A stretch of 64,000 nt of DNA. Origin: Tetrahymena thermophila SB210. Lineage: Eukaryota; Ciliophora; Oligohymenophorea; Hymenostomatida; Tetrahymenidae. This document shows positions 1,523 through 43,430 of the stretch, piece after piece; the stretch's first letter is position 1; every line of letters starts with the position of its first letter. Position numbers and translations under genes: made by a program. Below the pieces are notes generated by a model. That model saw only the letters and a list, made by a program, of their open reading frames with translations, did not search any database and was not told where the DNA came from. The stretch is from assembly GCF_000189635.1 (NCBI RefSeq), contig NW_002476155.1:466001-530000 (forward strand), read 5' to 3'.

Positions 1523-4070
1523 GGCTATGAAGCTAAATAATTTTTTACTTTTTTGAGATACTTGCTTTATTGCTTATATAAATAATTAAAGTTGAAGATA
1601 TTTTTGATATAAACGTTTTTAGATTAATATCAAATTCTAAGGATGTAATTAAACAAATTATAACAATAATGTAATTAGATAAACCACAGCAGCTAAAATA
1701 TTTGACTAAATAATTTTATATTTATAATTAAATATATTTTAATAATTTCCAAAATTATTTTTGAATACAAGAAATAATTTTTTTATTAAAATAAAAATTT
1801 ACTATTTTTAAAATTAATTTAGACTTCTAAAAATTACAAAATCAAATTTTAGAATAAATAGAAAAAAAATAAGTCCGTTTAAAAAGTATTTGAAGTAATA
1901 TGATAGAAAATTCAAACCTAAAAATAAAATTATAGATATTTTATTTTATTTATACCAAAATAAATACATTAATACTTTTAATTTACCTGTTTTTCTAGCT
2001 CTCTGTAAGTTTTATTTTCATTAAAAAAAAAAATTTATTTAAATTATAAAATAAAATAGGATGAGAGAAAAGTATTAAAATTTGTTTTTTTTCTGATAAT
2101 CATACTTGAAAGATTAGCATCTGTTTCTCAATTATTTACCATAAATGATTTGAAAAAAAATGAATTCATATAAATTCTTGCTTTAATTCCTTTTTATCTG
2201 AATTAGATTTATTTTATTTCAAAAAACTAAAGATTTCCTGACTATATTCAAAACAATTTATTCAAGGAGTGCTTTGATGAAGGGATAATTTTACTTCCTT
2301 TATAAATTATAGCTGTTTTTAATTTACTATGCTCTCAAAGCATAATTAACTAGCTACTAAGTTGCTTTATTCAGCTATATATTGTTATGAACTTCTTTAT
2401 AGTATATTATCATTTGCTCGTTCACTATTTTGATAAAGATTATTATGCTAATTAAAAAGATTTTTAATATTAAATTATTAAATAATTTATTCTTACATCC
2501 TTCTAGCTTCATATTTACTTAAAATTAATTTTATTATTTCACGAAATGCCATATTTTTGGGAAATTTATACAAGCTTAAGTGTTTTATAAGCTTGTCGGA
2601 TTTGGAAGGAAATTTTTATTAAAGAGAAATAAAAAAAAATACCTCTATACTTTTTTATTTTGTTATAAATTTAACAAATTGCCTTCATAAATCTAGACTA
2701 CAGATTCATACTAAATAAGTTGAATACTAGAGTATTAAAGAATTACGGGTTTTTTGTATTTGATATTATTATAGAAGGTTTTTTTATAATACAGCTGTAT
2801 TTTAGTTGCTACCTGCTATTTTAATTTGATTTTAATATTCTGAAAATAAAAAAATAAGATTATACATTAGTATTTTTGCAGATCCTTAGCTTTTCTATCA
2901 GTACTATCAGATATTATAAATATATTATAACTTCTTATATATATGGATATCCAGCTATCAATATTTATGATTAAGTAAGTTTGAGAAGACTGACATCAAC
3001 ATAAAATTAATAAAAAATAAAAAGCTAATTAGCAAATCTCAAGTATGTAATGATACACATAACTTTATCCGAATAAACATAAGAAGAAATTTTGTTTTAT
3101 TTATTTTACTGCTTTGGAAAAAGTGAAATTTAAGGTAATCTACACAGCAGATCAAATTAAAATTAAAAAAGCTCCTTTCAAGCAGTCTCTATTTAGTTTT
3201 ACTTAAATATAGAATTTTTTTTAAGTGTAATAAAAATTAACAGAAGAATATTACCTCAAATATCCTAAATATATTTAAGAATTAATAAATCAAACAAAAT
3301 AATTTAGTTATTTTAACTGATGCTAGAAGTTGATATGATTACAAAAGTATTTCTGAACTAAAATTTAGATTTATAGTTAGCTCTTAGTAGCTATGTAAAT
3401 TAAATTTAATAGCAATTACACTTTTATTAACTATTCAAAATAAAAGTTGAACCTTTTATGCTTTGCAATCCTAAAATGATTTATTAAGATTTATTTTTTT
3501 GATAAAGTTAAAAATAATATGATGAATTTATTCTTATTAAATTTTAATGTTTGAATATGATACACTTAAGTTAAAAAAATTTCGTTAAATACTTAAAACT
3601 GTAAGGTAAATATGAATACATATAAAATTATTTATTTACTTTGTTTGTTTGTGTGTATTTAAAATTAATATGTGATAAATTTAAAGTTAAATACAATTTA
3701 CAAGCAACTTTTAAAGAAATTTTTTGTAAGAAAACTATTTCAAAGATTCATAAAAAAATTTGAAAAGCAGCTAACTTTGAATTGATACTACAGTCAATTT
3801 TACTTCATTAATAATAATTCGTAATTTTCTTTTTAAAATATTTTTTTTGTTTTTTTTATAATTAATAGTAGAAAGAATTTCAAAAATATGCCTGATATGA
3901 TAAATTCTAATTTCATTAATTAAAAATTTTAATAATTACCTTATTTATGGATATTATTTTTCTATTGGCTTATTTATATAAAAAAGTTCAATGGATAATA
4001 TTAAATAATATTTTGAAAGAAAAATAATATAATTAAATTGAATAATTTTGCATAAATATTATAATATAAA
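1523..4070. other. intergenic, includes leader of tandem unit 1
   Basis: About 2.5 kb without a convincing gene. From about 3535 to 3780 the sequence resembles 11560-11840. The roughly 180 bp before 4071 is shared with the regions before 8029 and 12086, so it is a conserved promoter/5'-UTR block of the tandem module. The rest, 1560-3480, holds nothing I can name. Confidence 0.6.
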
Positions 4071-5360
4071 ATGGGACAGAATAAGTCAAAATGAATAATA
4101 CAATAAACTTCTGAACCATTATAAAACAAAGCAGAACCATAAAAAAAATATGTAGTTTAATATAAGGTAAGGAGTATAACATAATTGACTATTTTGATGA
4201 AAATAATGCTAGAATATCTTACTTTACATGCTAGTATGCTAAGATACCTAATTAAAAAAGGTTTAGAGGTGAGCAAAGATACACTAGCTATATACATAAA
4301 AGATTCTGATAGCGAATAATTTAAAGAATTTTTAAATATTATTAATAAAGAGAAATGCAATTTAATTATGATTCACAAGCTCTCATTAATATCATTAAAC
4401 AGAAATGGTAGATGTAATTTTGTCATCCAAATAACTTATAAAATTAGATTTATTATCTAAAAGGAGAACTGAATCAATCGATCAACTAGTGCGGTTATTT
4501 GGTAAAATTATAGATTATTATGAGTAATCTAACTATTTACGAGATGTAAATTTTCAAATTTAATACAGTACAATCAGAATATATTGTGAAAATAAACTTT
4601 TCTTAGTTGAAATCTTAAAATTACATCCTCCATAAGAGGAACATAAAATTTAGCCAATAAATTTATTTGCTATGAAATCAAAATGCAAATTCAACAAGAT
4701 TTATATAGGTGTTTATGCAGAAATTTTGAAAAACAGAATATTTTCTATTATAGATTTCTTAAAAAATAATCAAGAAGAATTATTAAAGCTTAATTTGAGT
4801 TTTTTCAATGACTTTTAAGAAGATGAAATAGAATTAGCCCTTTAGCGTATAACTCAAATAACTTAAGAAAACAAAATAAGTTAATGTGTTATTTACATAA
4901 GAACTAAATCAAATATAATTTGACATATAGGAATACATAATCAAAAATTAAAATATATTAAAATTTAAGATAAATAATATAGGAATTTATGACAATCATA
5001 CATTAATCTATTTTGATTTAAATAAAAGTATGCAAGCTTAGCTTTAAATTTAAAAAATCATTTAAAACAATCCTAAAATATAAATTCTTAAATTGTAAAA
5101 TGACTTTTTCTAATAATTAAAACCTAACTTAGTAAGAATATTTAAAGCTATTACAGTAGCTTTCTAATGTTAATTAGTTTGAAATAGCAATAAATGATTC
5201 ATATAACTTAAATTGTTAAAATTTTAAAAATATATTAAATAAATATGAAAATGAGATAAAATTATATGCCATTATTTATTTGATTGTAAAAAAATAACTT
5301 TAAAAACTACTCTATCATCAAGCTGAGAATTCCTTCATTGATCTGTGCATAGATTAATGA
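4071..5360 (+). pseudogene. decayed copy 1 of MGQNKSK/TPR-like gene
   Basis: Homologous along its length to the intact genes at 8029 and 12086, but disabled. Codon 8 is TGA (TAA in the other copies). A 1-nt loss lies near 4165 and a 2-nt loss near 4230. Further frame changes lie around 4380-4480 and 4880, and a stretch near 5100-5120 is missing, making the locus 81 nt shorter than its sisters. The terminal codons and TGA (5358-5360) still align. Long in-frame blocks survive, for example around 4490-4870, so inactivation looks fairly recent. Transcription is possible because the leader is conserved, but no full-length product can be made. Confidence 0.88.
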
Positions 5361-5783
5361 ATTAAATCATAGCTTGTCATAATAAAGTATATATATTATT
5401 TTTATAATTAGTATTTTGAATATTAATTTTATGAATGAAACTACTCTATTGATTCAATTTTTTAAACATATATTCTTGGAAAATAATTTATTTTTACTGT
5501 GTTAAGAATATTTAAACTAAAATATATTTTTAAAGATTTTTGTTTACTGATAAATATTTTAGAGTGTATATTTATGTTTATCTGTTTGGTCAATCTTCCT
5601 GTTGTTATTGACATAAAATATAAAAAGATATTTATCAGAATTAATAAAGTTTGATTATTAATTTAATGCATCTACAACAATAATTTATAAAACGAATATT
5701 TTCAAGGTTTCTAAAAGCAAAATTTAAACTTTTAAATATTTATTTATATAAAACTTAAAATTAAAAGAAAAGTATTAAAGACC

Positions 5784-7402
5784 ATGAATAAAAAACCATT
5801 TTAGCTTCTAGTATTTTTCTATATAAAAATAGTCACAGGAGGTTTGATATATTTTTTCTTCTAGTTTTTAGAGGTAATTCGTTTCAGATAAATTATAGAT
5901 GAATACATATTTTTAAAAATATTTAGCATGAAAATAACACATTTAAATACACCTTCTTATCATTTTACATCATAGAGAGACTTATATGCTTCTTTTCTAT
6001 TTTTGCAAATTTAAAGCCTAACATTTTTGAAACAATATTGATAGCTCTCCTCAATCCTATCTAGCTTGAAGAGTTTTATTTACTGATTAGAGGAAACAAA
6101 TATCCACGATACTAAAATGAAGGTATTGATGGCCAGGCTTTTGTGATATCTGTTTTTAGTGTTCCAAATTATATTTTGATCTTAATTTGGACATTTTATT
6201 ATCCAGAAACCGTTAATATAGTTATTACTACTCTTGCTCTTGTTGCTTTAATATTCGGATAATTCTTTATATGCTACATTATAATTTACCAAAGAGATTT
6301 GAATGTTAACTTATATAATTCTCAAATATTTTTGATATTTTTAAAAGAAACTACTTCTGTAGCAATACACTTTTTAAGTTATGTGGCTTTGCTATGCGTA
6401 AATCTCCAAATGGAATATTTTTTATATTATTTAATAGCATTTGAGGTATGCTTGATCAGCTATTATGTTACTTAGATTAATACTAGAATATAAGATTATT
6501 GTAATTCAAGTATTGAAGCAGTTGGTGCTGGCTTTTTATTAATATGTAAGGAAATTCTACACTTAGTAATAGATTTAAGAGATTTGATTGATAGCTTTTT
6601 CAAACATTCAGTCTAATCTTATGGATTAAATATATATAATAACATGCTTCTTTTTGGTTTCTTAGTTAAAACTTATCTTTTTATTATGTTTAATCTATTC
6701 CTTTATCAGCATAATTAATTCCATAACATGAAGCTCTTTTACGTATTACTTTACATACTTTCAATTATAAGCTGTATCATATTAGGTTTCAGGGTATTTG
6801 AATATATGCTATGGCCTGTTATTAATGGTAGAACATTTATAGAATTTAATAGTATTGATTCTTTCATTGAATATTCAAAAAAACAATCTAATACAAAAAA
6901 ATTTGAAAAATTAGAAACAATACTGTTGTTGTGCAAGGAACAAAATGCTACTTAAGATTTTATCTTTTAATTTTTTTATGGTTTTTGTAAAAGTTAAATA
7001 ATATCAAAATCAATTAGCCGTGAGTATATCTAAAAATCACAATCTGAACAACAAAAAATTTGCTTTTAAAGAGCGGTTAATGTAAATGATATTTAATACA
7101 TCATAGAAAAACATGGAAGAGTTCTTCCCTAGATTAAAGAAGTGTATTTTTTACATAGCGATAATAAATATGAATACAATTTGTTTAGAGTATTTTCAGA
7201 AGATAATATCTCTGTTAAATTAAATTTTAATACAAATTTAGTTCCAGATGAATTGACACAACTGAATACAAAAACAGTATAATAAATAAAAGCAATCATT
7301 CATTCATATTTTATATTAAATTCTCAAAAATATGATATTTTGGGTCAGTAATTAACAAATCCTTAATTAGTTTTCTACGATTTATTTGATGAAGTAAATT
7401 GA
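5784..7402 (+). CDS. multi-pass membrane protein, tandem copy 1
   Basis: Predicted 521-aa integral membrane protein. Exon 1 is 5784-5873, the intron 5874-5926 (53 nt, GTAATT...TTTAG), exon 2 5927-7402; the stop is TGA. The N-terminus is a hydrophobic helix (QLLVFFYIKIVTGGLIYFF). Further hydrophobic segments follow, such as FVISVFSVPNYILILIWTFY, IVITTLALVALIFGQFFICY, YFLYYLIAFEVCLISYYV and LFYVLLYILSIISCIILGF, about 7-8 in all. A hydrophilic C-terminal tail of roughly 170 residues begins after the WPVINGRTF segment. Family not recognised; no pore or catalytic signature is visible. It follows the broken MGQNKSK gene and is nearly identical to the protein at 9778. Confidence 0.85.
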
Positions 7403-8028
7403 AAAACAAAATCGATAATTTTGAGAATTATCAATTATTATCTTGGTATTTGTTTAAACAAATAAATTTTCCACTAAATATTTATAAATTATTAGAATAC
7501 TATTAGATTAGTAAGGAAGATTATTTATTTCATATTTATGTTTTGATTAATGTTAATTTTTAGAATTAAATAAAATAAAAAGTTTATTTTTTATAACTTT
7601 TAAAAAAGTATTTAATTTATGCATTGAATCTAAATAAGGATAAGGAAAAATACCCTTACAACAGTTCCTTGTTATAAAATATTAATATATTAACGACTAA
7701 ATAGCAATCTACATATTTTTTCTTTTTTTTTGATAATAATTTATAAAACAGATATACTAGATATACTGTACCTTTAACAATAAAACTAAGCAGAATATTT
7801 TAATTTTTTAAGCAAAAAAATTATTATAAAAATTTTCAAAAATATGCTTGATAAATTCTAATTTGATTAATTTAAATTTTCGTAATCACGTTATTTATAG
7901 ATATTATTATGTATTTATTTATTTGCTTATTTATACAAATTAGCGCAATTGAAAATATTAAATAATATATTGACAAAAAATAAATATCATAATTAAATTG
8001 AATAATTTTGAATAAATATTATAATAAA

Positions 8029-9399
8029 ATGGGACAGAATAAATCAAAATAAATAATACAATATACTGCTGAACCTTTATAAATTGAAGTCTAGCCAAAA
8101 TAACAATATTTAATGTTATTTTAAGGTAAGGAATATAATATAATCGACTATTTTGATGAATCCCATGTTAAAACATCTTATTCTACATGCTAATGTATGC
8201 TAAGATATCTAATTAAAAAAGGTATAGAGGTGAGCAAAGATTCACTAGCTTTATACATGAAAGATTCTAATAATGAATAATTTTATGAATTTTAAAAAAG
8301 CATTAATACTGAGAAGTGTAATTTTATCATGTTACACTTATACTAATTTTATTTGTAAATAAGAATAGTAGATATAATTTAGTAATGCAAACAACTTATT
8401 AAAATAAATGTATAAGCTTATAGGTATGCTGAATCAAACGATTAACTAATATAGCTATTTGGTAAAATTATAGATTATTATGAGTAATCTAACTGTTTAC
8501 AAGATGTATATTTTAAAATTTCATCAAATACAATCAAGATAGATTGTGAAAATAAATATTTCTCAATTGAAATCTTTAAATAGCATCCACCACAAGAATA
8601 GGATATTTAGCAAATAAATTTATTTGCTATGAAATCAAAATGCAAATTCAACAAAATATATATAAATATTTATGCAGAAATTTTGAAAAACAGAATATTT
8701 TCTATCATAGATTTCTTATAAAATAATCAAGAAGAATTATAAAAGCTTGATTTGATTTTTTTCAATGATTTTTAAGATGAAGAAGTTGGATTAGCTCTTT
8801 ATTGTATAACTCAAATATTTTAAGAATAAAAAAAATTAAATGAAGTTAGTGTGTTTTTAACAAAAGATCTAAATCAAATATAATTTGACATATATGAATA
8901 CATAATTAAAAATTAAAATATGGAAAAATTTACGATAAATGATATTGGAATATGTGACAATCTTGCATTAATCTATTTTGATTTATAAAAAAGCATGGAA
9001 GCTTAGCTTGTAATTAAAAAAATCATTTAAAATAATCCTAAAATATAAATTCTTAAACTGAAAAGAGACTTTTACTTATAAGGTTAATTTCTATAAAATT
9101 TTGAAGTGGAAATTCCAAGAAGAATTAAATTATAAATTGAAATAAATAGTTACAACCTAACTCAGTAATAATATTTAAAGATATTAAAGTAGATTTCTCA
9201 TGTTAATTAATTTGAAATAGCAGCAAATGATTCATATACATAAGGAATATAAGGTAAAAATTTTATAAATATATTAAATAAATATGAAAATGAGATTAAA
9301 TTATATGCAATTATCTATTTGATTATAAAAAAATAACTTTAAAAGGTACTCTACCATAAAGCTGAATATTCTTTCATTGATTTATACATAGATTAATGA
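8029..9399 (+). CDS. MGQNKSK protein with TPR-like segment, copy 2
   Basis: Uninterrupted 456-aa frame with TGA stop and no intron. The N-terminus Met-Gly-Gln-Asn-Lys-Ser-Lys fits the classical N-myristoylation signal (Gly2, Ser6, Lys7), so membrane anchoring through a lipid is inferred. There is no signal peptide or membrane helix. Residues about 305-340 (NLALIYFDLQKSMEAQ..., then NNPK) look like one tetratricopeptide-type helix pair; the rest is mostly amphipathic helix. I recognise no named family. The downstream neighbour in each unit is a membrane protein, which suggests, but does not prove, a partnership. The start is fixed by conservation of ATG and the preceding leader in all three units. 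Confidence 0.85.
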
Positions 9400-9777
9400 A
9401 CCAAATAGTTAATTTATCTTAATAAAGTATACATATGGTTTTTATATATTGTATTTTAACTACTAATTTTTTAAAATTACTTGTTGGTTCAAGTTTTTAT
9501 AAAAAATTTAAGCCAATTCTATTTACTAATCTTAAATTTTAGATTATATTTTCTAAAACACTATGTATATTTTTTTGATCAATCTTAAAGTTATAGACAT
9601 AAAATATAAAAAGATATTTATCAGAATTAATAAAGTTTGATTATTAGTTTAACGCATCTACAACAATAATTTATAAAACGAAGATTTTGCTATTAAAAGC
9701 AAATCATAAAGTTTGAAATATTTAGATTAGACTTAAAATTTATAGAAAAGCTAAAAAATAAAAAGGTATTAAAGAAA

Positions 9778-11393
9778 ATGAATGAAAAACCCTTATAGCT
9801 TCTACTATTTTTTTATATAAAATTAGTCACAGGAGGTTTAATATATTTTTTCTTCTAGTTTATTGAGGTAATTCATTTCAGATAAATTATAGATGAATAC
9901 ATATTTTTAAAAATATTTAGCATGAAAACAACACATTTAAATATACATTCGTATCATTTTATATCATTGAGAGACTTATATGCTTCTTTTCTATTTCTGC
10001 AAATTTAAATCCTAATATTTATGAAACAATATTGATAGCTCTTCTCAATCCTATCTAGCTTGAAGAGTTTTATTTACTGATTAGAGGAAACAAATATCCA
10101 CGATACTAAAGCGAAGGTATTGATGGCCAGGCTTTTGTTATATCTGTTTTAAGCGTTCCAAATTATATTTTGATCTTAATTTGGACATTTTATTATCCAG
10201 AAACCATTAATGTAGTTATTACTACTCTTGCTCTTATTGCTTTAATATTCGGATAATTCTTTATATGCTACCTTATAATTTACCAAAGAGATCCAAATGT
10301 TAACATATAGAATTCTCATATCTTTTTCATATTTTTAAAAGAAACTACTTCTGCAGCTATTCACTTTTTAAGTTATGTGGCTTTGCTATGCGTAAATCTC
10401 CAAATGGAATATTTTTTATTTTATTTAATAGCATTTGAGGTATGCTTGATCAGCTATTATGTTACTTAGTTTAATACTAGAATATAAGATTATTGTAATT
10501 CAAGTATTGAAGCCTTTGGAGTTAGCTTTTTATTAATATGTAAGGAAATTCTACATTTAGTAATAGATTTAAGGGATTTGTGTGATAGCTTTTTCAAACA
10601 TTCAGTCTAATCTTATGGGTTAAATATATCTAATAACATGCTTCTTTTTGGTTTCTTAGTTAAAACTTATCTTTTTATTATGTTTAATCTCTTCCTTTAT
10701 CAGCATAATTAATTCCATAACATGAAGCTATTTTACATATTACTATACATACTCTCAATTATAAGCTGTATCATATTAGGTTTCAGGGTATTTAAATACA
10801 TGTTATGGCCTGTTATTAATGGAAGAACATTTATCGAATTTAATAGTATTGATTCCTTCATTAAATATTCAAAAAAACAATCTAATACAAAAAAATTTGA
10901 AAAATTAGAAACATTACTGTTGTTGTGTAAGGAAGAAAATGTTACTTAAGATTTTATCTTTTAATTTTTTTATGGTTTTTGTAAAAGCTAAATAATATCA
11001 AAATCAATTTGCCGTGAGTATATCTAAAAATCATAATCTTAATAACAAAAAATTAGCTTTTATAGAAAGGTTAATGTAAATGATATTGAATAAATCATAC
11101 AAAAGAATGGAAGAGTTCTTCCCTAGATTAAAGAAGTATTTTTACATAATGATAATAAATATGAATACAATTTGTTTAGAGTATTTTCAGAAGATAATAT
11201 CTCTGTTAAATTAAATTATAGTACTGATTAACTTCCAGATAAATTACTAGAATTGAATACAAATACTATATAATAAATAAAAGCAATCATTCATTCATAT
11301 TTTATATTAAATTCTCAAAAATATGATATGTTGGGTCAGTAATTAACAAATCCTTAATTAATTTTCTACGATTTATTTGATGAAGTAAATTGA
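9778..11393 (+). CDS. multi-pass membrane protein, tandem copy 2
   Basis: Predicted 520-aa protein, exon 1 9778-9867, intron 9868-9920 (53 nt), exon 2 9921-11393. Topology is the same as the copy at 5784: hydrophobic N-terminal helix, about 7-8 membrane segments, hydrophilic tail. The two introns differ at a single position, and the coding parts differ by scattered substitutions and a one-codon deletion (near 11135). Such similarity outside constrained codons points to recent duplication or gene conversion. This is the only unit in which both genes of the module are intact. Function unknown. Confidence 0.86.
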
Positions 11394-12085
11394 AAACAAA
11401 ATCAATAATTTTGAGAATTCTACATTCTGGTCTTTCTATTTGTTTATACAAATGAAATCTCTACCAAATATTTATAAATTATTATAAGAAAAATATTAAA
11501 TTAGTAAACTAAATTATTTATTTCATATTTATGTTTTGATTCATGTGAATTTTTAGCATTAAAAAATTTTTTTAAATAAATTAAAATTTTTGAATATAAT
11601 GCTCTTAAATTTAATGAATTTCAGTAAATACTTAAAACTTTAAGGTAAATATGAATAAATATAAAATTGTTTATTTGTTTTATTTATATGTATTTGAATA
11701 AATACGTGATAAATTTAAAGTTAAGTACAATTTTCGAGTATGTTTTAATGAAATTTTTTCTTAAAAAAATTATTTTAAAGATTGACAAAAAAATTTTGAA
11801 AATCATTACTATTAATTGATAATTTAGTCAAATTTACCTCATTAATAACTACTTGTAAGTATTTTTATAAAATAATTTTTTTTTTATTATTGATCATGTA
11901 AAAAATTTAAAAAATATGACTGATAGATAAAATCTTATTTCATGAATTAAAAATTTTCATAATCACCTTATTTATGGATATTATTTATCTATTAGCTAAT
12001 TTTTTTAAATTAGTGTAATTGATAATATACTGTCAGAAAAATATCATAATTAAATTGAATAATTTTGTATAAATATTAAAATAAA

Positions 12086-13456
12086 ATGGGACAGAATAAG
12101 TCAAAATAAATAATATAATAAACTGCTGAACCTTTAAAAATTGAAACTTAACCAGAATAAAAATATGTAATGTTAAACAGTAGGGAATATAACATAATGG
12201 ACTATTTTGATGAAGCTCATGTTAAAACATCTTATATTACATGCTAAAGTATGCTAAGATATCTTATTAAAAAAGGTATAGAGGTGAACAAAGATTCACT
12301 AGCTTTATACATGAAAGATTCTAATAGTGAATAGCTTAAAGAATTTTTGAGAAATATTAATAAAGAGAAATGCAATTTTATTATGTTACACTTATACTAA
12401 TTTTATTTGTAAATAAGAATAGTAGATATAATTTAGTAATGCAAACAACTTATAAAAATAAATATATAATCTTATAGGTATACTGAATCAAATGATCAAT
12501 TAATGTAGCTTTTTGGTAAAATGATAGATTATTATGAGTAATCTAACTATTTACAAGATGTATACTTTCAAATTTAATCAAATACAATCAAAATAGATTG
12601 TGAAAATAAACACTTCTAAATTGAAATCTTAAAATAATATCCTTTTCAATAAGAGTAGGATATTTAGCCAATAAATTTATTTGCTATGAAATCAAAATGC
12701 AAATTCAACAAAATTTATATTTATGTTTATGCAGAAATTTTGAAAAACAGAATATTTTCTATAATAGATTTCTTATAAAATAATAAAGAAGAATTATAAA
12801 AGCTTCATTTGAATTTTTTCAATGATTTTTAAGATGAAGAAGTTGAATTAGCTCTTTAGTGTATAACTCAAATATTTTAAGAATACAAAAGATTAAATGA
12901 AGTTAGTGTGTTTTTAAATAAAGAAATAAATCAATTTTAATTTGACATATATGAATACATAATTAAAAATTAAAATATAGAAAAATTTACGATAAATAAT
13001 ATTGGAATATATAACAATATTGCATAAATATCTTTTGATTTAAATAAAAGTATTTAAGCTTAGTTTATCATTTAAAAAATCATTTAAAATAATCCTAAAA
13101 TATAAATTCTTAAACTGTAAAGAGACTTTTTCTTATAAGGTTAATTTCTATAAAATTTTGAAGTAGAAATTCCCAGAAGAATAAAATTATAAATTCAAAT
13201 AAATAGTTACAACGTAACTCAATAATAATATTTATAGCTATTACAGTAGTTTTCTCATACTAATTAGTTTGAAATAACAGCAAATGATTCATATAAATCA
13301 GGAATATATAGTTACAATTTTATAAATACATTAAATAAATATGAAAATGAGATTAAATTATATATCATTATTTAATTAATCCTAAAAAAATAACTTTAAA
13401 AGGTACTCTACCATAAAGCTGAATATTCTTTCATTGATTTATATATAGATTAATGA
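12086..13456 (+). CDS. MGQNKSK protein with TPR-like segment, copy 3
   Basis: Intact 456-aa frame, exactly the length of the copy at 8029, TGA stop, no intron. The MGQNKSK start is retained; so are the central block LFAMKSKCKFNKIYI and the NNPK-terminated TPR-like helix pair. Many amino-acid differences from copy 2 are spread over the protein, so this gene is more diverged than the membrane genes are from each other. Its membrane partner in this unit is truncated, so if the products act as a pair this copy must rely on partners encoded elsewhere. Lipid anchoring is inferred from the N-terminus. Confidence 0.85.
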
Positions 13457-14194
13457 ACCAAATAATTAATTTATCTAAATAAATAAAACATATGATTATT
13501 ATAATTTAGTATTTTAAATATTAATTTTATGGATGAAATTGTTAATCATCTATTCTTGGAAAATTATTTTTTAGTACTGTCAAATTTATTATTTTTCAAA
13601 AAATTAGTTTTTATTTTATATAAAAAATAAAAATAATCAGCTCTATAAATAGCTGTTCTTGCATATGAAATATCTCAAACTGAAAGTAATTTAATGGTTC
13701 GTGCTATTTCATATCATTTTTATATTATTTTATCAATTTGATTTTGTATCTTCAAGAGCTATTTTATATTTATTATGTATATATTTAATCAAATCTGATT
13801 TATTTATTTTATACATTATAATACTAATAAATTGAGCATTCCTAATTTGAACATCCTATTTATATTTCAAAACTTAAGTTTAAAAAACTTGATAAAATAT
13901 TTGGTTTAAATTACTTTTATTATTTAGCATAACATCAAAAAAAAATCTTACAATTGATTATTTTGTAAATTAAAAATTGTTTTGAGAAAATAAAATTTGT
14001 GCTGAAATTTTAAATTAAAAGCATTGAAAAAAATGCAAACTTTCTATTTCGGAATTAATAAAGTTTGATTATTAGTTTAACACATCTACAGCTATAGTTT
14101 ATAAAACAAATATTTTTAAAAGGTTATTAAAATCAGATCATGAAGTTTAAAATATTTAGATAAGACTTAAAATTTATGAAAAGTGATTTTCTAC
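13457..14194. other. spacer between genes of unit 3
   Basis: AT-rich, no coding frame. The last 150 bp (from about 14045) match the leaders of the membrane genes in units 1 and 2. The part before that, 13550-14040, is not shared with the other units. Confidence 0.6.
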
Positions 14195-14407
14195 ATGAAT
14201 AAAAAATCCTTTTTGTTTCTACTATTTTTTTATATAAAAATAGTTAAAGGAGGATTGATATATTTTTTTTTCTTGTTTTTTGAGATAATTAGTTTTAGAT
14301 AAATTATAGATGAATATATATTTTAAATAATTAAATTTAGTATAAAAGCAACATATTTAAATACACTTTCCTATCATTTTACATCATCCAGAGAATTATA
14401 TGCTTCT
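14195..14407 (+). pseudogene. truncated membrane-protein pseudogene, copy 3
   Basis: The start codon and first 30 codons match the genes at 5784 and 9778. The intron donor has mutated from GT to AT (GAG|ATAATT at 14285), so the intron can no longer be removed normally. Homology stops abruptly at about 14407 within the second exon; nothing of the remaining roughly 1.4 kb of gene follows. It is therefore a 5' fragment that lost splicing and most of its coding sequence, possibly at the end of the duplicated segment. Confidence 0.85.
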
Positions 14408-21119: not shown

Positions 21120-24100
21120 ATGAATTAAGCATCAGATAGAAGAAGTGAAGCTTCAGATTAATACGCTGTTGCTTCAGCCAAAAATAGTTTATCAAACACA
21201 TAATCATCTAACTAAAATAATAATGCAAGTAAAATTTTTATTTAGTAAAGCTTTTTAATAATTCTCATTACTATAAAAAGGTTAAAATAATGAAAGGAAA
21301 AATGATTGCAGGGTTTAGGTTGCAGTAAGAGTAAGACCTTTTATAAATAAAGAGCTAGTTGATTGTGAAAGCTCTTGTGTTAAAACACAATCTAATAAAA
21401 TTATAATAGGTGGAGATAAGGATTTTGAGTTTGATAAAGTTATAGACTAAGAAGCGTCTTAGGAAGAGGTATATCAATGGTGTGTCAAAGATTTGCTCAA
21501 TAAATCTTTTGAGGGTTATAACGCCACGGTATTAGCTTATGGATAAACTGGATCAGGTAAAACTTTTACAATGGGAACATCAAATACTAGCCTAAACGAT
21601 GCATAAGAAATGGGTATAATTCCAAGAGTAATTAGAGAAATATTTAGCATTAGAAGGGAGAAAGAAAAATCTGTAGAAATGCTTTTAAAAATTAGCTATT
21701 TTGAGATATATAATGATAATATTATTGATTTGCTTGATCCTAATGCTATATCTGGTACTAATAATGCTGCTGCATCAAAAAAGGGAAAGTCAAATGCAAA
21801 TGCAAATAATATATTTATTAGGGAAGAGCTTGATGGTAGCATTAATTTATATGGAATAACCGAAGAGAAGGTAAATTCTCCTGAAGAAATGCTTGCAGCA
21901 TTAGAAAGGGGAGGTTTATGCAGGTCTACTAGTGCTACTCTCATGAATTAAACAAGCTCTAGATCTCATGCGGTTTTTACAATATTTTTAGAATAGCATT
22001 GTATCGATGATTTATATCAAAATTAAGATTAAAATGCTATGATTCCTGAAGATGCAGATGGGTAAAAAACAGTAGAGAACATTATTAATGAGGGATTTAA
22101 AACAAGTAAGTTTCATTTTGTTGATTTAGCAGGAAGTGAACGTATAAAGAAAACAGGTGCTGTTGGTAATACTATGAAGGAAGGAATAAACATTAATATG
22201 GGTCTTCTTTCTCTTGGTAATGTTATATCAGCTCTCACAGAACCATAAAAGCCTGGAGCTGCAAAAAAGCATATTCCTTATAGAGATTCAAAGCTAACTC
22301 GTATCCTTTAAGATAGTTTAGGTGGAAATAGTAATACACTTATGATTGCTTGTGTAAGTCCTGCAGAAAGCAACTTTGAAGAGAGTCTTAACACTTTGAA
22401 GTATGCCAGTAGGGCAAGAAGAATAAAAAATAAACCAATTGTAAATAGGGATCCACAAAGTGCTTTAATAAGCTCCCTTAAATAGCAAATATAAGAGGCT
22501 CATTTGGAAATAGCAAAGTATAGATAATTGCTAGTTACAAATAATGTAAAAATACCAGATGGCATGATGGGTTTTGGATTAAATGCATTACAAAATGTTG
22601 AAGATGGTGGCCAAAAAAGAAAATTGACATAGGACCTCATGATGCTAAAACAAAATAATAATGTTGGGGGAGCAATTCTTTCAATAGGGATCGGTAATGA
22701 AGCTGATATAGAAGAAATAAAGCAATTGCGTTTAAATTAAGTAAAGTTAGAGAAAAAAGTAAAAGAGCTGTAAGCTGAAAATAGCCAATTGAAATCGCAT
22801 ACTTAAAAAGGAGAGATAGAGGTTTATACAATTTAAAAGCAAAAGGATGAATATAGATTAAAATTAGAAAAAATCTTACAAATAGCAAAAGAAAAAGGGT
22901 TATTACATTAAGCAAGTTCAAATAGTATGGATGTTGAAGGAGAGGATCAAAAATAGCATATTTTTATTAATCAAAATGGTGAACTTGAGTTGGGCTAAGA
23001 GTAGCAAAACTTATTCGATGAGTATAATGAAAACATACAAAAGCTAAAAAAAGACCTTTTAAAAAAAGATCAAGAAAAAGGAGAGATGCAATTTGAATTT
23101 GAAGAGTCGATGAGAGCTTCAATTAGAGATTAATAAATATTGTGTGAAAAAGAAAAAAAGATAATTACCTTGAATAGAAACTTGAAAACAAAAGAGAATG
23201 AAATTAAAAAGCTTATGAAAGAGTTGCAAAACTTAAAAAAAGAAAATGCAGATTTATTAAAAAATGCAAATGTAAAGTTAACAGCAGCAGATATGGAAAA
23301 TATTCAAGATACTAGTATAATGTAAGAAGAGCAAGAAGAAGAGTTTAATGATGAAGGAGAAGGTTTGGATTAAATATCTATGGATCCTGAGTATGTTTAA
23401 ATGGAAAGTTAGTTAAAATTAGAAGAAAACTAAAATAAGCTAAAGCTCTCAAAAGTTGATGGATCTATTTAAGAAAAAAGCGAAGATCTACGCAGATTAA
23501 ACTAAAATTAATTAGAGCTCTAAAAGTAGCTTCTAGAGAAAATGAAAGAACAATACCATTAAAAAATTATTCATCTTGAAACTGACATGAAAAAAATAGA
23601 AAATTAAAGAGATGAGGCTCTTTAAAAGTTATCTAATAATAACTCTAAGGAAGCTATTGCTGAGAAATAAAGAGTTATTGAAAATTTCAAGTAAAAAGTA
23701 GTAGACATGCAATCTAATCTCAATGAATACAAAAGAAAAGCAAAGGAGTAGGAGACACTCTAAAAAACTGTGTAGGCTTAAGAAAGACAAATACAATAAC
23801 TTGGAGTAGAAATAAATAAATTTAAGCAATTAAAGACTAACCTTTATAAAGAACTTAAAAAGAATAATGAAGAATTTGAAAAATTCAAACAGAAAAAATA
23901 TAAGGATTTAATGGATGAAAAAAAAAAGAATATTGAAAAGGAAAAGCAAATATTTAAGTTATAAAATTAGACAAAAAAGTAAGAGCGTCTTTTACAGAAG
24001 AAGTAAGAAGAATACAATAAAATGATTAGGTCACGAGATTTAATTAAGAAAATTATCTCTTCAAAGAGCACTAATTAGCTTAGAGGAAAAATTGCTTCTC

Positions 24101-27100
24101 AGCGTTATAAGCGTAAATAGAAAACAGAATTACAATTTGGTATGTCTGAAGACCAAAATGTAACTTTAAATACGAGCATAAACGCTTTTACAAACTAGTC
24201 ATTTGCAGAAAGTAGCTCTGATGACCTTGAAGAAATTCTTGATAAGTGTCTATGCAAATTAATAGAATCAATAGAAATAGAAATGAATATTGAAAAAGTA
24301 GAGGAGGAGTTAAAAACAACTTCACAAGAGCAAGAAGAAGCTTAATAAAAGTATATTGAGTTTAAGCTAAATCTTGAAAAAAAAGAGAAAGCAATTAATG
24401 AAAAATAAGCTGGCAATAAAAATAAAGATGAGAGTTTATTTGGTGATGATATGATTGAGTAACAACAGCATTAAATAGATTAGTAGAAAATGGAATTAGA
24501 AGAGATTTAGAGCAGACTTGATAGTTTAGAAGCCAAATACGAATTTACAAAGGAGAAGCTAAACAAACTAATCAACGATAAGCGTTCAAGCAGTTTTGAA
24601 ACTTTGTAAAATGAACTTCTAACATCACAGAAATATAACAATATCCAAACTCAAAAAATTCTTTTTAAATATTTAATTGAAAAATTTGGATCGAGCAGTA
24701 ATGAGATACTTCGCAACCAGGATAAAATAGAAAACCTCAAGCTTTAAATAGCAGATTTATAGTAATATGTTAAGATGCTATAAAATCAAAAAGACATATG
24801 CTAAATTTAGCTATAATAACAAATTGATAGTTTACAGAATTAGCTATAAGCAGCACAGACGCTTTAGTCTCAGTCTTAGCCTTGTCCTTCAGATTCTGAT
24901 TCTGAAATTAACTAAACCTAAGATGAACAGAGCTTTGGGTATATGTAAGTAAATTAGATAGGAGATGATGGAAACCGCAGATTTAATAAAAATAAAGGGT
25001 CTCCTCCAAAATAGATATCTAGTAATAGATATAAAATGATGAGACAGCAATATTAAGCAGAGTAATCTCCATTTAAAAAAGACAATAAAAACCAAGAAGA
25101 TACGGTTAAACTTTAATAGAAGTAAATTAATGATCTAACCAGGTAACTCAAGCAACATGAATTAAGAGTAAAAACATTACAAAATAGGAATGATACTTTA
25201 CAGTAAAAGTATGATGATCTTAAGAAAGCTAACTGCAAGGATAAGTTTATTGGCATAAATAAGTAATATATAGAAGAAGAATAAAGCAGCTAGCAATAGT
25301 AAATTCAAGCAGTTGGTGTTGTCACAAATCACACTTCTTAGACGTAGAATGCAACATAAATTTAAGCTTAAAACTAACAACCAAACTTGAATTTACCTGG
25401 ATTATAGCAAAATTAGAGCATAAATAAAAACATTAAGGAAATAGCAAGCATATAGTCTTTGAAAGATAGAAGAAAGGAAATAAAAGGGAAAGTTAATACA
25501 AATGAAGGAACCCCATAAAATAATAACAATAATAGTACGAGCACTCCCGTACAAAATACACCATAATCATAGCATATAAATTCTCTGTAAAATTTGTCAG
25601 CCTAATCAAACTAATAGGAATAGCATTCATTTAGCGAAAACAGAGAAGACAGAAACATACAATTTTAAATACTTGATAAAGTTACAAATAATGATACTCA
25701 TATTAGTTTATTTGCTAGCAAAACCAAAGCTCATTCTCTAGCTTAGAAGAGAAATATAATTCAAGAAGCTCGCCTATAACAAAATTCTTTAGCTTAGCAA
25801 CAGCAACAATAGTAGCAGTAAGCATTATAGCAATTGCAAATTTTAAATACAAATGGTTCTTCAGATTTTGGAGTAAGAGGAAGACTTTCCTAAGGAAATC
25901 CATCAAGACAAGAAACTTAGATGCCTAATTTCAATAATTTAACTCTAGAAATAGAATAATAATAATAATAATAATAAAATAAAAATATAGATACCATTTT
26001 GAATACCTCAAGTGACAATACAAGTTCCTATCACAATTCTTTAGGATTCAGCTTAGGCAGTCCTCTTAAAGTTCCAGAATAAGCAAACACAAACAATGTT
26101 TCTTTAGCAGAGTCAGAAGATTTAACATCGTTACATTAGTAATAAGCTTCATATAATAATAACAATATTAATAAAATAGTAAATGAAATGAATCAACAAG
26201 GTCAAGCAACAAACAATATTTTCAACAATTCAGGTTAGATCTTTTCTTTTGCAAACGACTTAAGCACTTCATTAAATTAAGCTAACCAGATAAATAGCTA
26301 AAATAATTTCAATAATAGCCTGTCATTACAAGGCTAAAATGGAAGTGGATTAAGAAATTCAGTTGAAAGCAATAATGGATTAGCTTCTCCTGGCGATGAA
26401 ACTCCGTTTTCTTGTAAATATGAGTGTTTAGCAAAAATCAATGATGCTCATACAGGTTAAGTATTTTGTGTAGAAAGTCATGAAAACTTTTTATTTTCAA
26501 CCTCTGTAAAATCCCTTAAAATATGGGACTTAGAAACACTAAAATGTGTAAGTGACATACAAGCCCATAACCATTTTGTGAAAGGTTTGGCAATTTTAGA
26601 ATAAGAAAAATGGATTGCTACTGCTTGTGATAAATATATCAATATATGGGATATGATAAGTATGTAAAAAGTATGTACTCTAACTGGACACAATGTAGAT
26701 ATCAAGCAACTTTATGTAGATTAAAACCATATTTTGTATTCTGCAGGTAAAGGCTTAAATAATTTTGGTGCACTTGTAACTTGGGATATCAGAAAATAGT
26801 AAGTTATAGATGAAAGAGAAAAGAATCAAGATATATTTTCAGTTCTACCCTACAATAATATAATCTATTATGCAAGCAGAGATCACTATGTTAGAAGAAT
26901 CAACATGGAAACAAATTAATCCATAGATCCATTTAAGCCTCCTCATTACGATGCAGTTACTTCTTTGGCCATACTGAATGGTTATCTTGTAAGTGGGTCT
27001 AAGGACCATAATTTAAAACTATGGAATACAAATCCTTCAAATATTAGCTTTAAGTAATAGACACACTACTCAAACGAATAAGTTATCTGTTTAGAGTCAA

Positions 27101-27438
27101 ACAAAGATAATAACCTATTATACGTTGGTCAAAAAGATGGTAAAATAAAGGTTGTGACAACTTAAAACAATAGGTTTAGAGATATTAGTGATATTAACAA
27201 TGGACTACAGTCAGTAAATTGCATAACAAAAGTATAAAGTACAAGTGCTGAAAATGTTTTTGCTTGTGGAAGTGCTGATAAAGTAATAAAAATTTGGAAA
27301 CCTACATCTGAGTCATAATACAACTTAGCTCAGCTCAAAAATATGTGTAGCAATGAATTATTGAATGCAAATAATTAACTGACTCCTTTTTAGACATTCT
27401 AGAGTGAATCAGCAAATGATATTATAGAGTCTGAATGA
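21120..27438 (+). CDS. kinesin-4 family (KIF21-like) motor with WD40 tail
   Basis: Predicted 2088-aa microtubule motor. Exon 1 is 21120-21228; the 52-nt intron is 21229-21280; the rest is one exon ending TGA at 27436. The motor begins VAVRVRPF and holds the P-loop GQTGSGKT (124-131), switch I SSRSH (262-266) and switch II VDLAGSE (317-323), then [20 protein letters not shown] and [13 protein letters not shown], typical of kinesin-4. Long coiled coils occupy about 440-1350, then an Asn/Gln-rich linker with polyQ (six TAA codons near 25959). From about residue 1757 there are WD40 repeats ([43 protein letters not shown]). Motor + coiled coil + WD40 is the KIF21 architecture; animal KIF21 regulates microtubule growth. 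A ciliary or cortical role here is inference. Confidence 0.95.
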
Positions 27439-29174: not shown

Positions 29175-30941
29175 TCATTATTATTATTATTGTTATTATT
29201 ATTATTATTATGAATAGAATTTATTAATGAATTATTCAGCTTCGATTGTGTAATGAAAGTCATCTAACTTAAATTTTTCAATGACTGCTTATGGAGTCAG
29301 ATACCTTTAGCGATGAACACTATCAATTAATTTTTAATTTCCTTCTAATAATCTCACTTCTAAGAAATCACTAAGTACGTGGCCAGGTATAATTTCAAAG
29401 GGTTAGAGATTAATACGCTTTATTGTTGTTGTAAGTGGGATTTCAAAATCATCGTAAGTTACCATGCTCATGGTAAAAGATGTGCCACCTTCAAATATCA
29501 CACGAGATAAATCTATGATTCCCTTAGCATCCATATAGTGAGGTAGTCCCCAACGAGACATAAATTAGCTCATGATATCAAGATTTTGAGATCCTATAAA
29601 TAAATTACAGAAGGAAGTATTGCCTCCTACAAAATGCTATTTAACTGTTAAAGTATAAGGATCTACTTTCTTGTAATGCAGAGCAATAACTTTGTTTTAA
29701 TCTAACTTATTTATAATGTCAAAAGCTTTTTTTAAAGAGAGTTAGTGGTTTTATGCCACAACTTCACGAATTTTTTATTCATCATTATTGTAGTGATTAA
29801 GCACCTTGTTTTTAAATTCTTGTTATCCACTTAGCTAAACAGAATATTTTTTAGATAAAAATTCTGAAATAAGTCTTGCTTCGTATGTGTTTAATCTATC
29901 AAGCATATGGACAGCAGCATTTACATCAGTTGTTCCATTATAAGTATCATCCAGCTAAGCGAGGCAATAATTATTTCCCTTAAATACTTGCACAGGAGGC
30001 CTAAAGTAATTTATAGGACAACAAGAAGTTTTAATCTTTTCTATGTCAAGATCTGTAAATACATCTTTACAAACGCACATATCACCATAGAATAAGAAAT
30101 TGAATTATTCATCTATCAGCTTGTATAGGCTCTATTTGTATTCAGCTTTTTGTTGAATGCGGATAGGCTTGAATTTCCTCTTTTACTTTAGTACACTTAA
30201 GGCTTCTTCTTCACTTTTTTTCTTTTCTTCATTTTTTCTTCTCTTTTCTAAAATGTATTATTTTTTCTTGTTTTCATATTCCTTTTTATTCAAATAGTGG
30301 AAGTTATCTGAAACGGGTTCATCCTCTTCGAAGATATTGTTTGATAGTCCCTCTTTTTTATTCTTTTACTTCAATTTTTCAAAGTAAATATATAAAGAAT
30401 TATATTGAGTTTCTATAAAATTTTGATTGTCATCTTTTTTTTCTTCAATTTTCTTTCTTTTAATTATAAATGGCTGCACAATACATTAATCTGCATCAGA
30501 TTTCGTGATCAATCCATTTTAAAATCCATATTTTTAAGTGCTAGCTTACTTTTATTATTATAATTATTATTATTATTATTATTCGACAAATTTAGCATCA
30601 AACAAAAATCGATTATCTTCCGAATAATTTTAAGCAGAGTAAGACACTTCAAATGATTTATCTTCTAAATAGGGAGAAGAGACAAAATGTTACACTATTT
30701 CTTGATTAGAATAACCCTCAGTTTCGTTGGAATTAAATATATTTTCTGCGCTGTTATTTTGTTAATTTAAAGAAATTGAGTTATTAATGTATGAGTGGTA
30801 GTCAAAACCAGTGCAATCATCTAGTTTTTCGTAAAACAAACTAAAACATTCTTTTGAGGAATGATCCATTAATTCGTTATTATTTAAATCAGGAGAAGAT
30901 GATTCTTCATCATTTAAAAATGATTTGGATTAACTGTTCAT
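29175..30941 (-). CDS. unknown protein, paralogue of gene at 32926; terminal polyQ
   Basis: Intronless 588-aa protein. The first 170 residues are Ser/Asn-rich and acidic with a polyQ tract (TAA repeat near 30570). A basic coiled-coil-like stretch follows (EKRRKNEEKKKSEEEALSVL), then a folded domain of about 330 residues shared with the gene at 32926. Shared signatures are YNG-T-D, F-VGGNT-F, L-M--(F/Y), R---PH--D--G, F-IPL/PFEG and a final (A/E)-FVNKFY-like motif. The protein ends in eleven consecutive Gln codons (TAA/CAA) just before TGA. The N-F-LG spacing recalls PAS-type folds, but that is weak. No family name can be given; nuclear or regulatory roles are speculation. Confidence 0.85.
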
Positions 30942-32925: not shown

Positions 32926-34257
32926 TCAGAGATTGAAGCATGATTTTCTTAATTGAGAATCTGAAGAAGAATCAGATGTAGGAGGATTAGTTTTTGATTT
33001 TTTATTTTTCTTGTAAAATTTATTAACAAAGGCTTCTGCCTCTAAGGTATATCCTAAATCTTCAATTTTCAAGTAAGTTTCCATTTGGTTAGTTTCAGTA
33101 CGAATTTAGGCTACACTTTGATAAACTTTAGGGTTGAACTTCAACTCTCTCATTTCGAATTTATCTCCAACAGAGAGACCAGGAGCAATTTCTAGTTAGT
33201 GGAGAGGAACAAACTCTCTGACACCTTCAAAGGGAAGGACTTCATCGTCAAAAGTAACTAAATTTGAGAAATATGAATTTTTGGATTAGAATTTTGAGTA
33301 CAAAACATTAAGGACACCAGAGACATCATTAAAATGAGGGAAACTATATCGTTAACAGTACTGCCTCATTAATGTGATATCGTTTTAGCCAAGGAATGCT
33401 TCAGTAAATTTGGTGTTACCTCCAACAAAGAATAGTTTATTTGTTCCTGCTTCATAGTCGAACTTCATGTAAAGGAAAACATATGCCTTGTTTTTATCAG
33501 CTTTTTCCATAGCTTCATGAGCAATTTTAAGTGAATTCAAGTGATTAGCTTTTACCTACTCTATCAACTACTCTTTGTTAAAGGCATTATTTAAATTAGT
33601 TCTGATCAACTGCAGCTAATTAATGTAGTTTTAGTAATTCATTATAAATGATGATATTTCAAAAGCTTATTAGTTTTATAAAAGTTTTAGCATAGTTACA
33701 GGAGCTAAAATATCAGTAATACCATTATAGGATTAGTTGAGAGTGCAAATAACATAGTTCTTACCAGTTTATACAGAAACTTAAGGGCGATAATTATGTA
33801 ATGGGCAATAGGCTTCCACTTAAGAAGAGTTTTGTTTTAAAAACACACCTCTATCTACTGTGAAATCTCCAGCGAGCATGAAACATGTTTTATCATCTAG
33901 ATTTCTCAAAAACAATTCCGAGTAGTTAGCAACTCTGCTAACTCTAAAATGTGAACCTCTGTTTCTGGTAATTGTAAAGGGTTTTATTTTTTATACTTTA
34001 TTTGAGAAATTAAACTCTAAAGAGCACTAATTCTTTTATCTGCCAGTATTATCTTCGTTATCATCACTTATTTCATAATCTTCTTCATTTTTTTTTGTGA
34101 CTATATTATCAAATTAAAATGAAGTGACTCTTGTTAAAAGTGCATTTAAATCAGTAGTATCAAATGCTTCCTAAGGTGAAGATAAGAAAGAGTTATAATC
34201 TTGATTTTTAACTTAGAAGTCAGCTAAGAGGGATAAAGTTTATTATGAAGTGTGCAT
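32926..34257 (-). CDS. unknown protein, paralogue of gene at 29175
   Basis: Intronless 443-aa protein, ATG at 34257-34255, TGA at 32928-32926. It has a short Gln/acidic N-terminus (to about residue 75), then a domain of about 330 residues aligned with the gene at 29175: SYNGITDILAPVTML, FFVGGNTKFTEAFLGQ, PHFNDVSGVLNVL, LEIAPGLSVGDKFEMR and a terminal EAEAFVNKFY. A Lys/Ser-rich tail follows (KKNKKSK, then SDSSSDS). Codon use is more GC-rich at third positions than in its paralogue, which suggests higher expression. The two genes are on the same strand with about 2 kb between, a typical old tandem duplicate. Function unknown. Confidence 0.88.
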
Positions 34258-42501: not shown

Positions 42502-43430
42502 TTTTAATTAGAAAAAACTAGTAATAAGAATATATTCTTTTTTTAAATTTATCAATCAAATAGTGAAAACATTTAGATATAGTAAATTACAGTTAAAAAA
42601 CTATTACTTAAAAACAAAGAAAGAGTATAATAGTTCTTTGAATAAATTTATTTTTAAAATTTATATTTTTTTCAATTTTCTAAAAATCTTTTAAAAATAT
42701 CTTAAATAGCTAAATAATATTTATTTTTTTAGAAATAATTTGGCTAAAAAATATTTTTTAAATCTAATTTATTGATATTTTAGTCGTTTTTTTTTTAAAT
42801 TGCTAAAATTTTTTTGATAAATTCTAAAAAATTGATTAGAAAAGATAAAATATTTATATTTTTATAATAATTTCTTTATGTAAGGAAATTTAGAAAAACT
42901 GAATGATAAATATCTAATACTTCAAAAGATATTTTGATAATATTTATTATGAGTTTTTGATTTTCTAACTTTTAAAGATCTAAATTTATATTAGTTAAAA
43001 GAGGTTCACAGTTTCTTGTTATTTTTTATTTACTTCTCCACTCTTTTTTGAGAACTATTTGATTTAAGAATTTGTTTAAAGAAATTTGTTAAATAATTTG
43101 TAATTATTGCGATACTTTTTGACTACTTTTACCTTTAGGAAATCAAATAACATTATTCAATTAACTCAGAAAGTAAATTTATTTGTTATTATACAGACCA
43201 AATTTCTTTTTAATTTGGAAAAAGGGTAACTTAAACAATGAATTTCTTATTTTTAATTCTTAAATAACACAAAAAGCTGTTTGTTGTAAATTTTCAAAAA
43301 AGTTAACTCTTTAATTTATAAATAACAAGAATTTTTTCAAGCTTTGTTCTAAATTTCTAAGCATTCGTTTACCATAAAAACTAAATATTTATGCAAAAAT
43401 TAAAAAAGCACTTAAATAAAAACCTCAAAT
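42502..43430. other. divergent intergenic region
   Basis: Spacer between the starts of the pseudokinase (minus) and the small gene at 43431 (plus); it presumably holds both promoters. No coding frame could be supported. Confidence 0.6.

Follow-up and report, generated by a model that had tools for sequence, protein, structure and literature searches.

Young, species-specific genes of Tetrahymena, many of them tandemly duplicated, have been described (PMC6564038, PLoS Biol 2019). According to the available sections of that paper, genes found in one or two species have median omega values (the ratio of nonsynonymous, dN, to synonymous, dS, substitution rates) of 0.25 and 0.30, LRR genes among the young genes have an omega of about 0.4, and conserved genes have medians of 0.03–0.07. 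The tandem share is 8–51% in genes of one or two species versus 7–14% in the most conserved genes, and a figure on species-specific genes has tetratricopeptide repeats (TPR) as one of its seven domain classes. A second described system of tandem gene pairs is formed by MTA and MTB at the Tetrahymena mating-type locus (PMC3608545, PLoS Biol 2013). In this study, an array of soluble-protein and multi-pass membrane-protein genes was analysed in a 64,000-nucleotide stretch of Tetrahymena thermophila SB210 DNA (NCBI RefSeq assembly GCF_000189635.1, contig NW_002476155.1, positions 466,001 to 530,000; C334:466001-530000), hereafter called the window, and its relatives were searched for in the 101-Mb, 445-contig assembly. 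The best overall explanation, to which we assign a probability of roughly 0.55, is a two-gene array under birth-and-death evolution, in which a soluble protein related to TPR proteins would act jointly with the membrane protein.

Tandem duplication, decay and purifying selection in the array

Comparison of the window with itself using blastn revealed three tandem units spanning 3525-14407, with copies 80–91% identical. The original prediction, made from the letters of the window, had described a triplicated two-gene module, which is borne out by these self-matches:

5604-7574 with 9590-11566: self-match, 91.5% (blastn)
7827-9470 with 11899-13528: self-match, 88% (blastn)
3525-5116 with 11565-13138: self-match, 83% (blastn)
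Further self-match pieces reaching 14407 (blastn)

In each unit the soluble gene is followed by the membrane gene, both on the plus strand and head to tail. The G+C content of the window is 18–31% (2-kb steps), and long open frames are present under genetic code 6, in which TAA and TAG encode glutamine. The genes of the array and the adjoining membrane gene m0 are as follows:

1900-2004 and 2060-3502, plus strand: exons of m0, a divergent open member of the membrane family, 515 amino acids; spliced frame open
2005-2059, plus strand: intron of m0, 55 nt
4071..5360, plus strand: s1, soluble pseudogene, with TGA at codon 8 and six indels
5784-5873 and 5927-7402, plus strand: exons of m1, multi-pass membrane gene, open, 521 amino acids; spliced frame open
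5874..5926, plus strand: predicted 53-nt phase-0 GT-AG intron of m1
8029..9399, plus strand: s2, soluble gene, open under code 6, 456 amino acids, starting MGQNKSK and ending IDLYIDQ
9778-9867 and 9921-11393, plus strand: exons of m2, multi-pass membrane gene, open, 520 amino acids; spliced frame open
9868..9920, plus strand: predicted intron of m2, 53 nt, phase 0, GT-AG, placed by comparison with the homologous m1; the frame is open after splicing
12086..13456, plus strand: s3, soluble gene, open under code 6, 456 amino acids; omega 0.39 against s2
14195..14407, plus strand: m3, membrane gene of which a 5' fragment remains; blastn similarity stops at 14407

A two-gene segment has undergone tandem duplication and decay. 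The predicted pattern of decay was correct, with s1 a pseudogene, m3 a 5' fragment, and s2, s3, m1 and m2 open. The further claim that exactly two intact copies of each gene remain fails on the third open membrane gene, m0 (1900-3502), which had been missed; the open genes in the window are two soluble (s2 and s3) and three membrane (m0, m1 and m2). The losses were also called complementary, and they did fall in different units, but this carries little information, because, if each gene lost a randomly chosen copy out of three, different units would be hit in two of three cases (own arithmetic).

The copy-specific indels of s1 measure 1, 2, 1, 8, 68 and 6 nt. The proteins of s2 and s3 are 82% identical and lack hydrophobic segments on a simple scale, which was applied to the window proteins only and gave seven segments in m0 and eight and nine in m1 and m2. 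The MGQNKSK N-terminus, present in all three soluble copies, is possibly an N-myristoylation start as judged by the motif alone, the rule being glycine at position 2 (Gly2) and a small residue at position 6. Among the membrane genes, m0 matches m2 at an expectation value (E) of 4e-11 in phmmer, and the first 210 nt are identical at 194/210 positions in m1-m2, 182/210 in m3-m1 and 179/210 in m3-m2; the donor site of m3 reads AT in place of the GT of m1 (by eye). Three GT-AG choices with a common acceptor, all keeping the conserved frame, are available for the m1 intron. The donor chosen retains most of the first exon of the family and lies at the same position as in m0 and (by eye) in C429:66641.

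Pairwise maximum likelihood under code 6 gave an omega of 0.28 for m1-m2 (dN 0.049, dS 0.175; likelihood ratio test against 1, 29.9) and 0.39 for s2-s3 (dN 0.087, dS 0.22; likelihood ratio test, 16.3). The intact soluble and membrane copies are kept by purifying selection, and this part of the original prediction held when tested. Singleton changes were also counted in an alignment of the three soluble copies covering about 420 codons. At codon positions 1/2/3 they are evenly spread in s1 (47/38/41) and number 16/12/28 in s2 and 20/9/22 in s3; third positions thus account for 50/107 singletons in s2 and s3 versus 41/126 in s1, the latter also containing changes from the branch leading to s2 and s3. 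The omegas of the array lie well below 1 and above the level of conserved genes, as is found for young tandem-duplicated Tetrahymena genes.

Relatives of the two proteins in the genome

The membrane family has at least 16 open members, namely, m0, m1, m2, six at C429, three at C91, and one each at C179, C200, C167 and C241; this count is a lower bound, introns having been checked in few members. A broken fourth copy accompanies the three open reading frames (ORFs) at C91, and C186 holds one broken copy. Matches to the family profile cover most of the protein length. The four C91 ORFs, which were outside the model, matched at E 4.7e-15 or lower in hmmsearch, and the members at C167 and C241, found by tail search, matched a model built without them at E 3.8e-37 and 2.2e-33. 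In a tree of 17 rows (the 16 members and an ORF at C134), clades were formed by m1 and m2 (99/99), the three C91 members (100/100) and the six C429 members (97/99), and m0 and the single-locus rows had no firm placement. The membrane family has expanded separately at several loci. Pfam gave no match for m0, m1 and m2 at E up to 1. Over 13 of the 16 members (C91 left out), one chance-looking match (E 0.028) was obtained among 11, and C167, C241 and the C134 ORF had none at 0.01. Literature searches listed no paper title on the membrane family or the tailed TPR family described below.

The C134 ORF (C134:1066801-1068240, L043) has many hydrophobic stretches by eye and the same C-terminal tail as family members (AYNK...YDLFELY). 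The membrane-family profile gives no match to it at E up to 100, and it perhaps represents a third tailed family. The membrane model also matched a 75-amino-acid frame at C288 (E 0.0098, 7.3 bits), which was taken as chance. Word-7 blastn comparison of the units with other loci was overwhelmed by matches of about 57–62% identity and was disregarded, and a codon-usage gene finder was too weak for use.

The soluble protein matched the array alone in the genome search. Pfam matches of the soluble proteins, at E 0.0034 to 0.17, were all under the cut-off, and PDB sequence searches with window proteins returned 0 matches in one case and a single match at E 2 in the other. The idea that the soluble protein begins like Skp1/BTB, formed by eye with no search behind it, was dropped, and AlphaFold2 models on window-only alignments (mean predicted local distance difference test score 31 for the soluble and 34 for the membrane protein) were unsuited to fold search.

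Soluble genes with Pfam TPR matches were found at C429, C103, C363 and C288. At C429, over the 90 kb read, six membrane genes (63867-84088) are interleaved, all on one strand, with three TPR genes (71634, 80498 and 87830) and a broken TPR copy (72898-74508). At C288:171335-188771, a TPR-family C-terminus occurs at four places on both strands, two of which were read as whole ORFs, and no membrane relative was found in the 7 kb searched. A 68-amino-acid frame at C179 (E 0.041 with the TPR model) was taken as chance. By eye, look-alike ORFs (ITRVALL...NMTVC) stand on either side of the C429 array at 53463-55430 and 92043-94127, and two tandem, divergent tubulin-like ORFs lie on the minus strand at C429:39313-43569.

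The relationship between the window soluble protein and these TPR proteins was examined using profile alignment, with stop-to-stop frames from the loci read, non-genes among them, as controls. When the 110-residue C-termini were aligned by hhalign to the TPR C-terminal profile, s2 scored 21.1 and s3 19.7, both with C-terminus on C-terminus, and the highest of 121 controls scored 15.0; such end-to-end placement occurred in none of the 121. Seven of the 14 membrane rows (m0, C179 and five of C429) also exceeded every control. Against the membrane C-terminal profile, C103 and C363 exceeded all controls, and the number of controls scoring as high was 1 for C288, 2 for the soluble proteins and 14–18 for T1-T3 of C429. 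At full length, s2 (22.0) and s3 (20.5) scored above all 80 controls (maximum 19.7) with the TPR profile. The best stretch of s2 is a single TPR unit (304-338), near the TPR_8 match of s3 at 308-338 (E 0.086, below the Pfam cut-off), and the best stretch of s3 lies elsewhere (130-187). No TPR unit above Pfam cut-offs was found in the window soluble protein.

Many membrane and TPR proteins end in a tail with the signature [AVTI][YF]-x17-D-[LIMN]-[YFH] followed by at most five residues. This signature, drawn up after the families had been seen, fits 16 of 23 family ORFs versus 1 of 2098 other ORF ends; the seven without it are m0, m1, m2, s2, s3, the s1 piece and one C91 frame ending elsewhere. 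The spacing is 17 residues in all 18 listed tails (6 TPR and 12 membrane, including C134), a list that leaves out m0, m1, m2 and near-duplicates and in which six tails (C167, C134, C241, C363 and two of C288) had been found through tail searches or in the vicinity of such finds. With a 32-residue hidden Markov model (HMM) of TPR tails, the membrane tails of C179 and m0 ranked above all 2099 background tails, and with the corresponding membrane model the TPR tails of C363 and C103 did so. With a 45-residue joint membrane and TPR tail HMM, the tails of the soluble proteins ranked 4 and 5 among 2103; at 32 residues they were at background level. Single-tail queries of the genome returned own-family tails, C134 and one internal chance match at C77.

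Explanations of the pairing

A segment with a soluble gene followed by a multi-pass membrane gene on one strand was duplicated in tandem twice. The copies are in birth-and-death evolution, two soluble and two membrane copies being retained by selection, one soluble copy having decayed and the membrane copy at the array end being truncated. Perhaps anchored through an N-terminal myristate, which the motif alone suggests, the soluble protein may be a scaffold that acts together with the multi-pass protein, and the tail common to the families could be a docking or sorting element read by a common partner; this part is tentative and less likely than not. The window soluble protein probably descends from the tailed TPR family as a diverged, fast-evolving relative. 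This estimate is tempered by the mid-protein stretch through which the membrane protein C241 reaches 22.2 with the TPR profile, above all 80 controls, so that scores of 20–22 are not conclusive, and by two chance-looking Pfam matches of s2 (E 0.0034 and 0.005) that are stronger than the TPR_8 match of s3. The original prediction had called neither family recognisable, which does not hold entirely for the soluble protein, whose C-terminus matches the TPR profile.

Besides the C241 score and the weaker TPR_8 match, a series of results weighs against the birth-and-death array with a TPR-related, jointly acting soluble protein. Synonymous to nonsynonymous single-base singleton codon changes number 18:48 in s1, 12:22 in s2 and 9:19 in s3, a modest contrast between broken and intact copies. 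The soluble proteins were not listed when the TPR profile was run in hmmsearch up to E 1, and their full-length Smith-Waterman z-scores against six TPR and four membrane rows were within the control range; the C-termini of m1 and m2 fail to match the corresponding TPR profile, scores as high being reached by 59 of 121 controls in one case and 82 in the other. The strict tail signature fits none of the six window sequences to which it was applied. The other 16 of 18 membrane tails with the TPR tail HMM, and the other four of six TPR tails with the membrane tail HMM, were not above background, neither 32-residue model ranks the soluble tails of the window, and whole-genome single-tail queries found no tail of the other family. 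Membrane genes at C91 (30 kb), C179 (20 kb) and C200 (20 kb) have no TPR or soluble relative within the stretch read, and the TPR gene at C103 (30 kb read) has no membrane relative. Co-occurrence was therefore seen at one of the five other loci read over at least 20 kb (C429, C91, C179, C200 and C103), and four showed one family only; the flanks of C363, C167, C134 and C241 are outside this count.

In a rival explanation, which we regard as possible at odds clearly short of even, unrelated, fast-evolving neighbours would have been copied as one segment without a functional link, giving one more young tandem array. Outside the array the genome search gave no match to the soluble protein, and the threefold pairing is consequently one event copied rather than three independent observations; C91, C179 and C200 lack a soluble relative in the 20–30 kb read, and the omegas of 0.28–0.39 are near the medians of 0.25 and 0.30 (LRR about 0.4) given for young, often tandem genes in the available sections of PMC6564038. 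Chance neighbourhood is harder to reconcile with renewed interleaving with TPR genes at C429 and with C-termini of several family rows that match above all controls; the C429 interleaving and a C-terminal tail in parts of both families favour a link between them. Such a link could be one of descent, in which local duplication or gene conversion passed the C-terminal part from a TPR-type gene to an adjacent membrane gene, or in the opposite direction, the tail and the adjacency being traces of origin rather than of partnership. This is rather unlikely. In its favour, the similarity of the C429 membrane protein at 75260-76963 spans 96 C-terminal columns (score 34.1 versus a control maximum of 19.7), and the 17-residue spacing is constant in the 18 tails; against it, tails from other loci, those of C179 (membrane) and of C103 and C363 (TPR), match as well, so that local conversion would not be the whole account. 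A diversity array like the mating-type locus, with incomplete pairs as donors for rearrangement, is very improbable: tandem pairs with partly incomplete copies are described for MTA/MTB in the available part of PMC3608545, but the window genes are head to tail rather than head to head, their proteins are of 456 and about 520 amino acids compared with 1423-1494 for MTA, and the broken soluble copy has scattered indels.

The original prediction took the persistent pairing as a sign that the proteins work together at a membrane. This is favoured by the interleaving at C429 and the shared tail and weakened by the single-event origin of the pairing and the one-family loci, and on sequence evidence a joint membrane role is plausible. 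It is doubtful that the two proteins exemplify a wider class of ciliate two-component membrane complexes, in which soluble scaffolds of TPR type and multi-pass proteins with the same docking tail would be encoded by co-duplicating neighbours at two or more loci, and partners would be amplified and lost in step.

Surroundings of the array and comparison with described systems

Elsewhere in the window, two adjoining minus-strand genes at 29175-30941 and 32926-34257 look alike by eye and gave no Pfam match at 1e-5. A 2097-amino-acid frame at 21145-27438 combines a kinesin motor with C-terminal WD40 repeats, and a kinase-like gene at 41407-42555 has an early MGNQNC in its ORF, thus being another possible N-acylated protein.

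Tetrahymena has many young tandem arrays, for most of which no function is known. A tail common to members of interleaved soluble and membrane families provides a testable handle on the possible role of one such array and suggests a way to search for further partners. New here are the genome-wide membrane family, its interleaving with TPR genes at C429 and the shared C-terminal tail.

The MTA/MTB pairs, as described in the available part of PMC3608545, resemble the array in their tandem two-gene units, some incomplete, and in their membrane-spanning parts, and differ in orientation, protein size and kind of incompleteness; all array genes are on the plus strand, and the two systems are compared here by their description. 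The likeness to TPR proteins lies in the alignment of s2 to one TPR unit of the C429/C103/C363/C288 family profile, whereas the window protein passes no TPR cut-off, starts with MGQNKSK and ends with DLYID. The young species-specific genes of PMC6564038, as far as the available sections describe them, are alike in their tandem copies and omega of about 0.25–0.4. In the window the copied unit holds two genes, and a C-terminal tail is common to parts of both families, which also occur together at another locus, features not encountered in those sections. The omegas of the window come near the published values for young, tandemly duplicated genes of Tetrahymena, and the array is ordinary in selection and setting; what lifts it above the ordinary is the tail common to both families and their interleaving at another locus.

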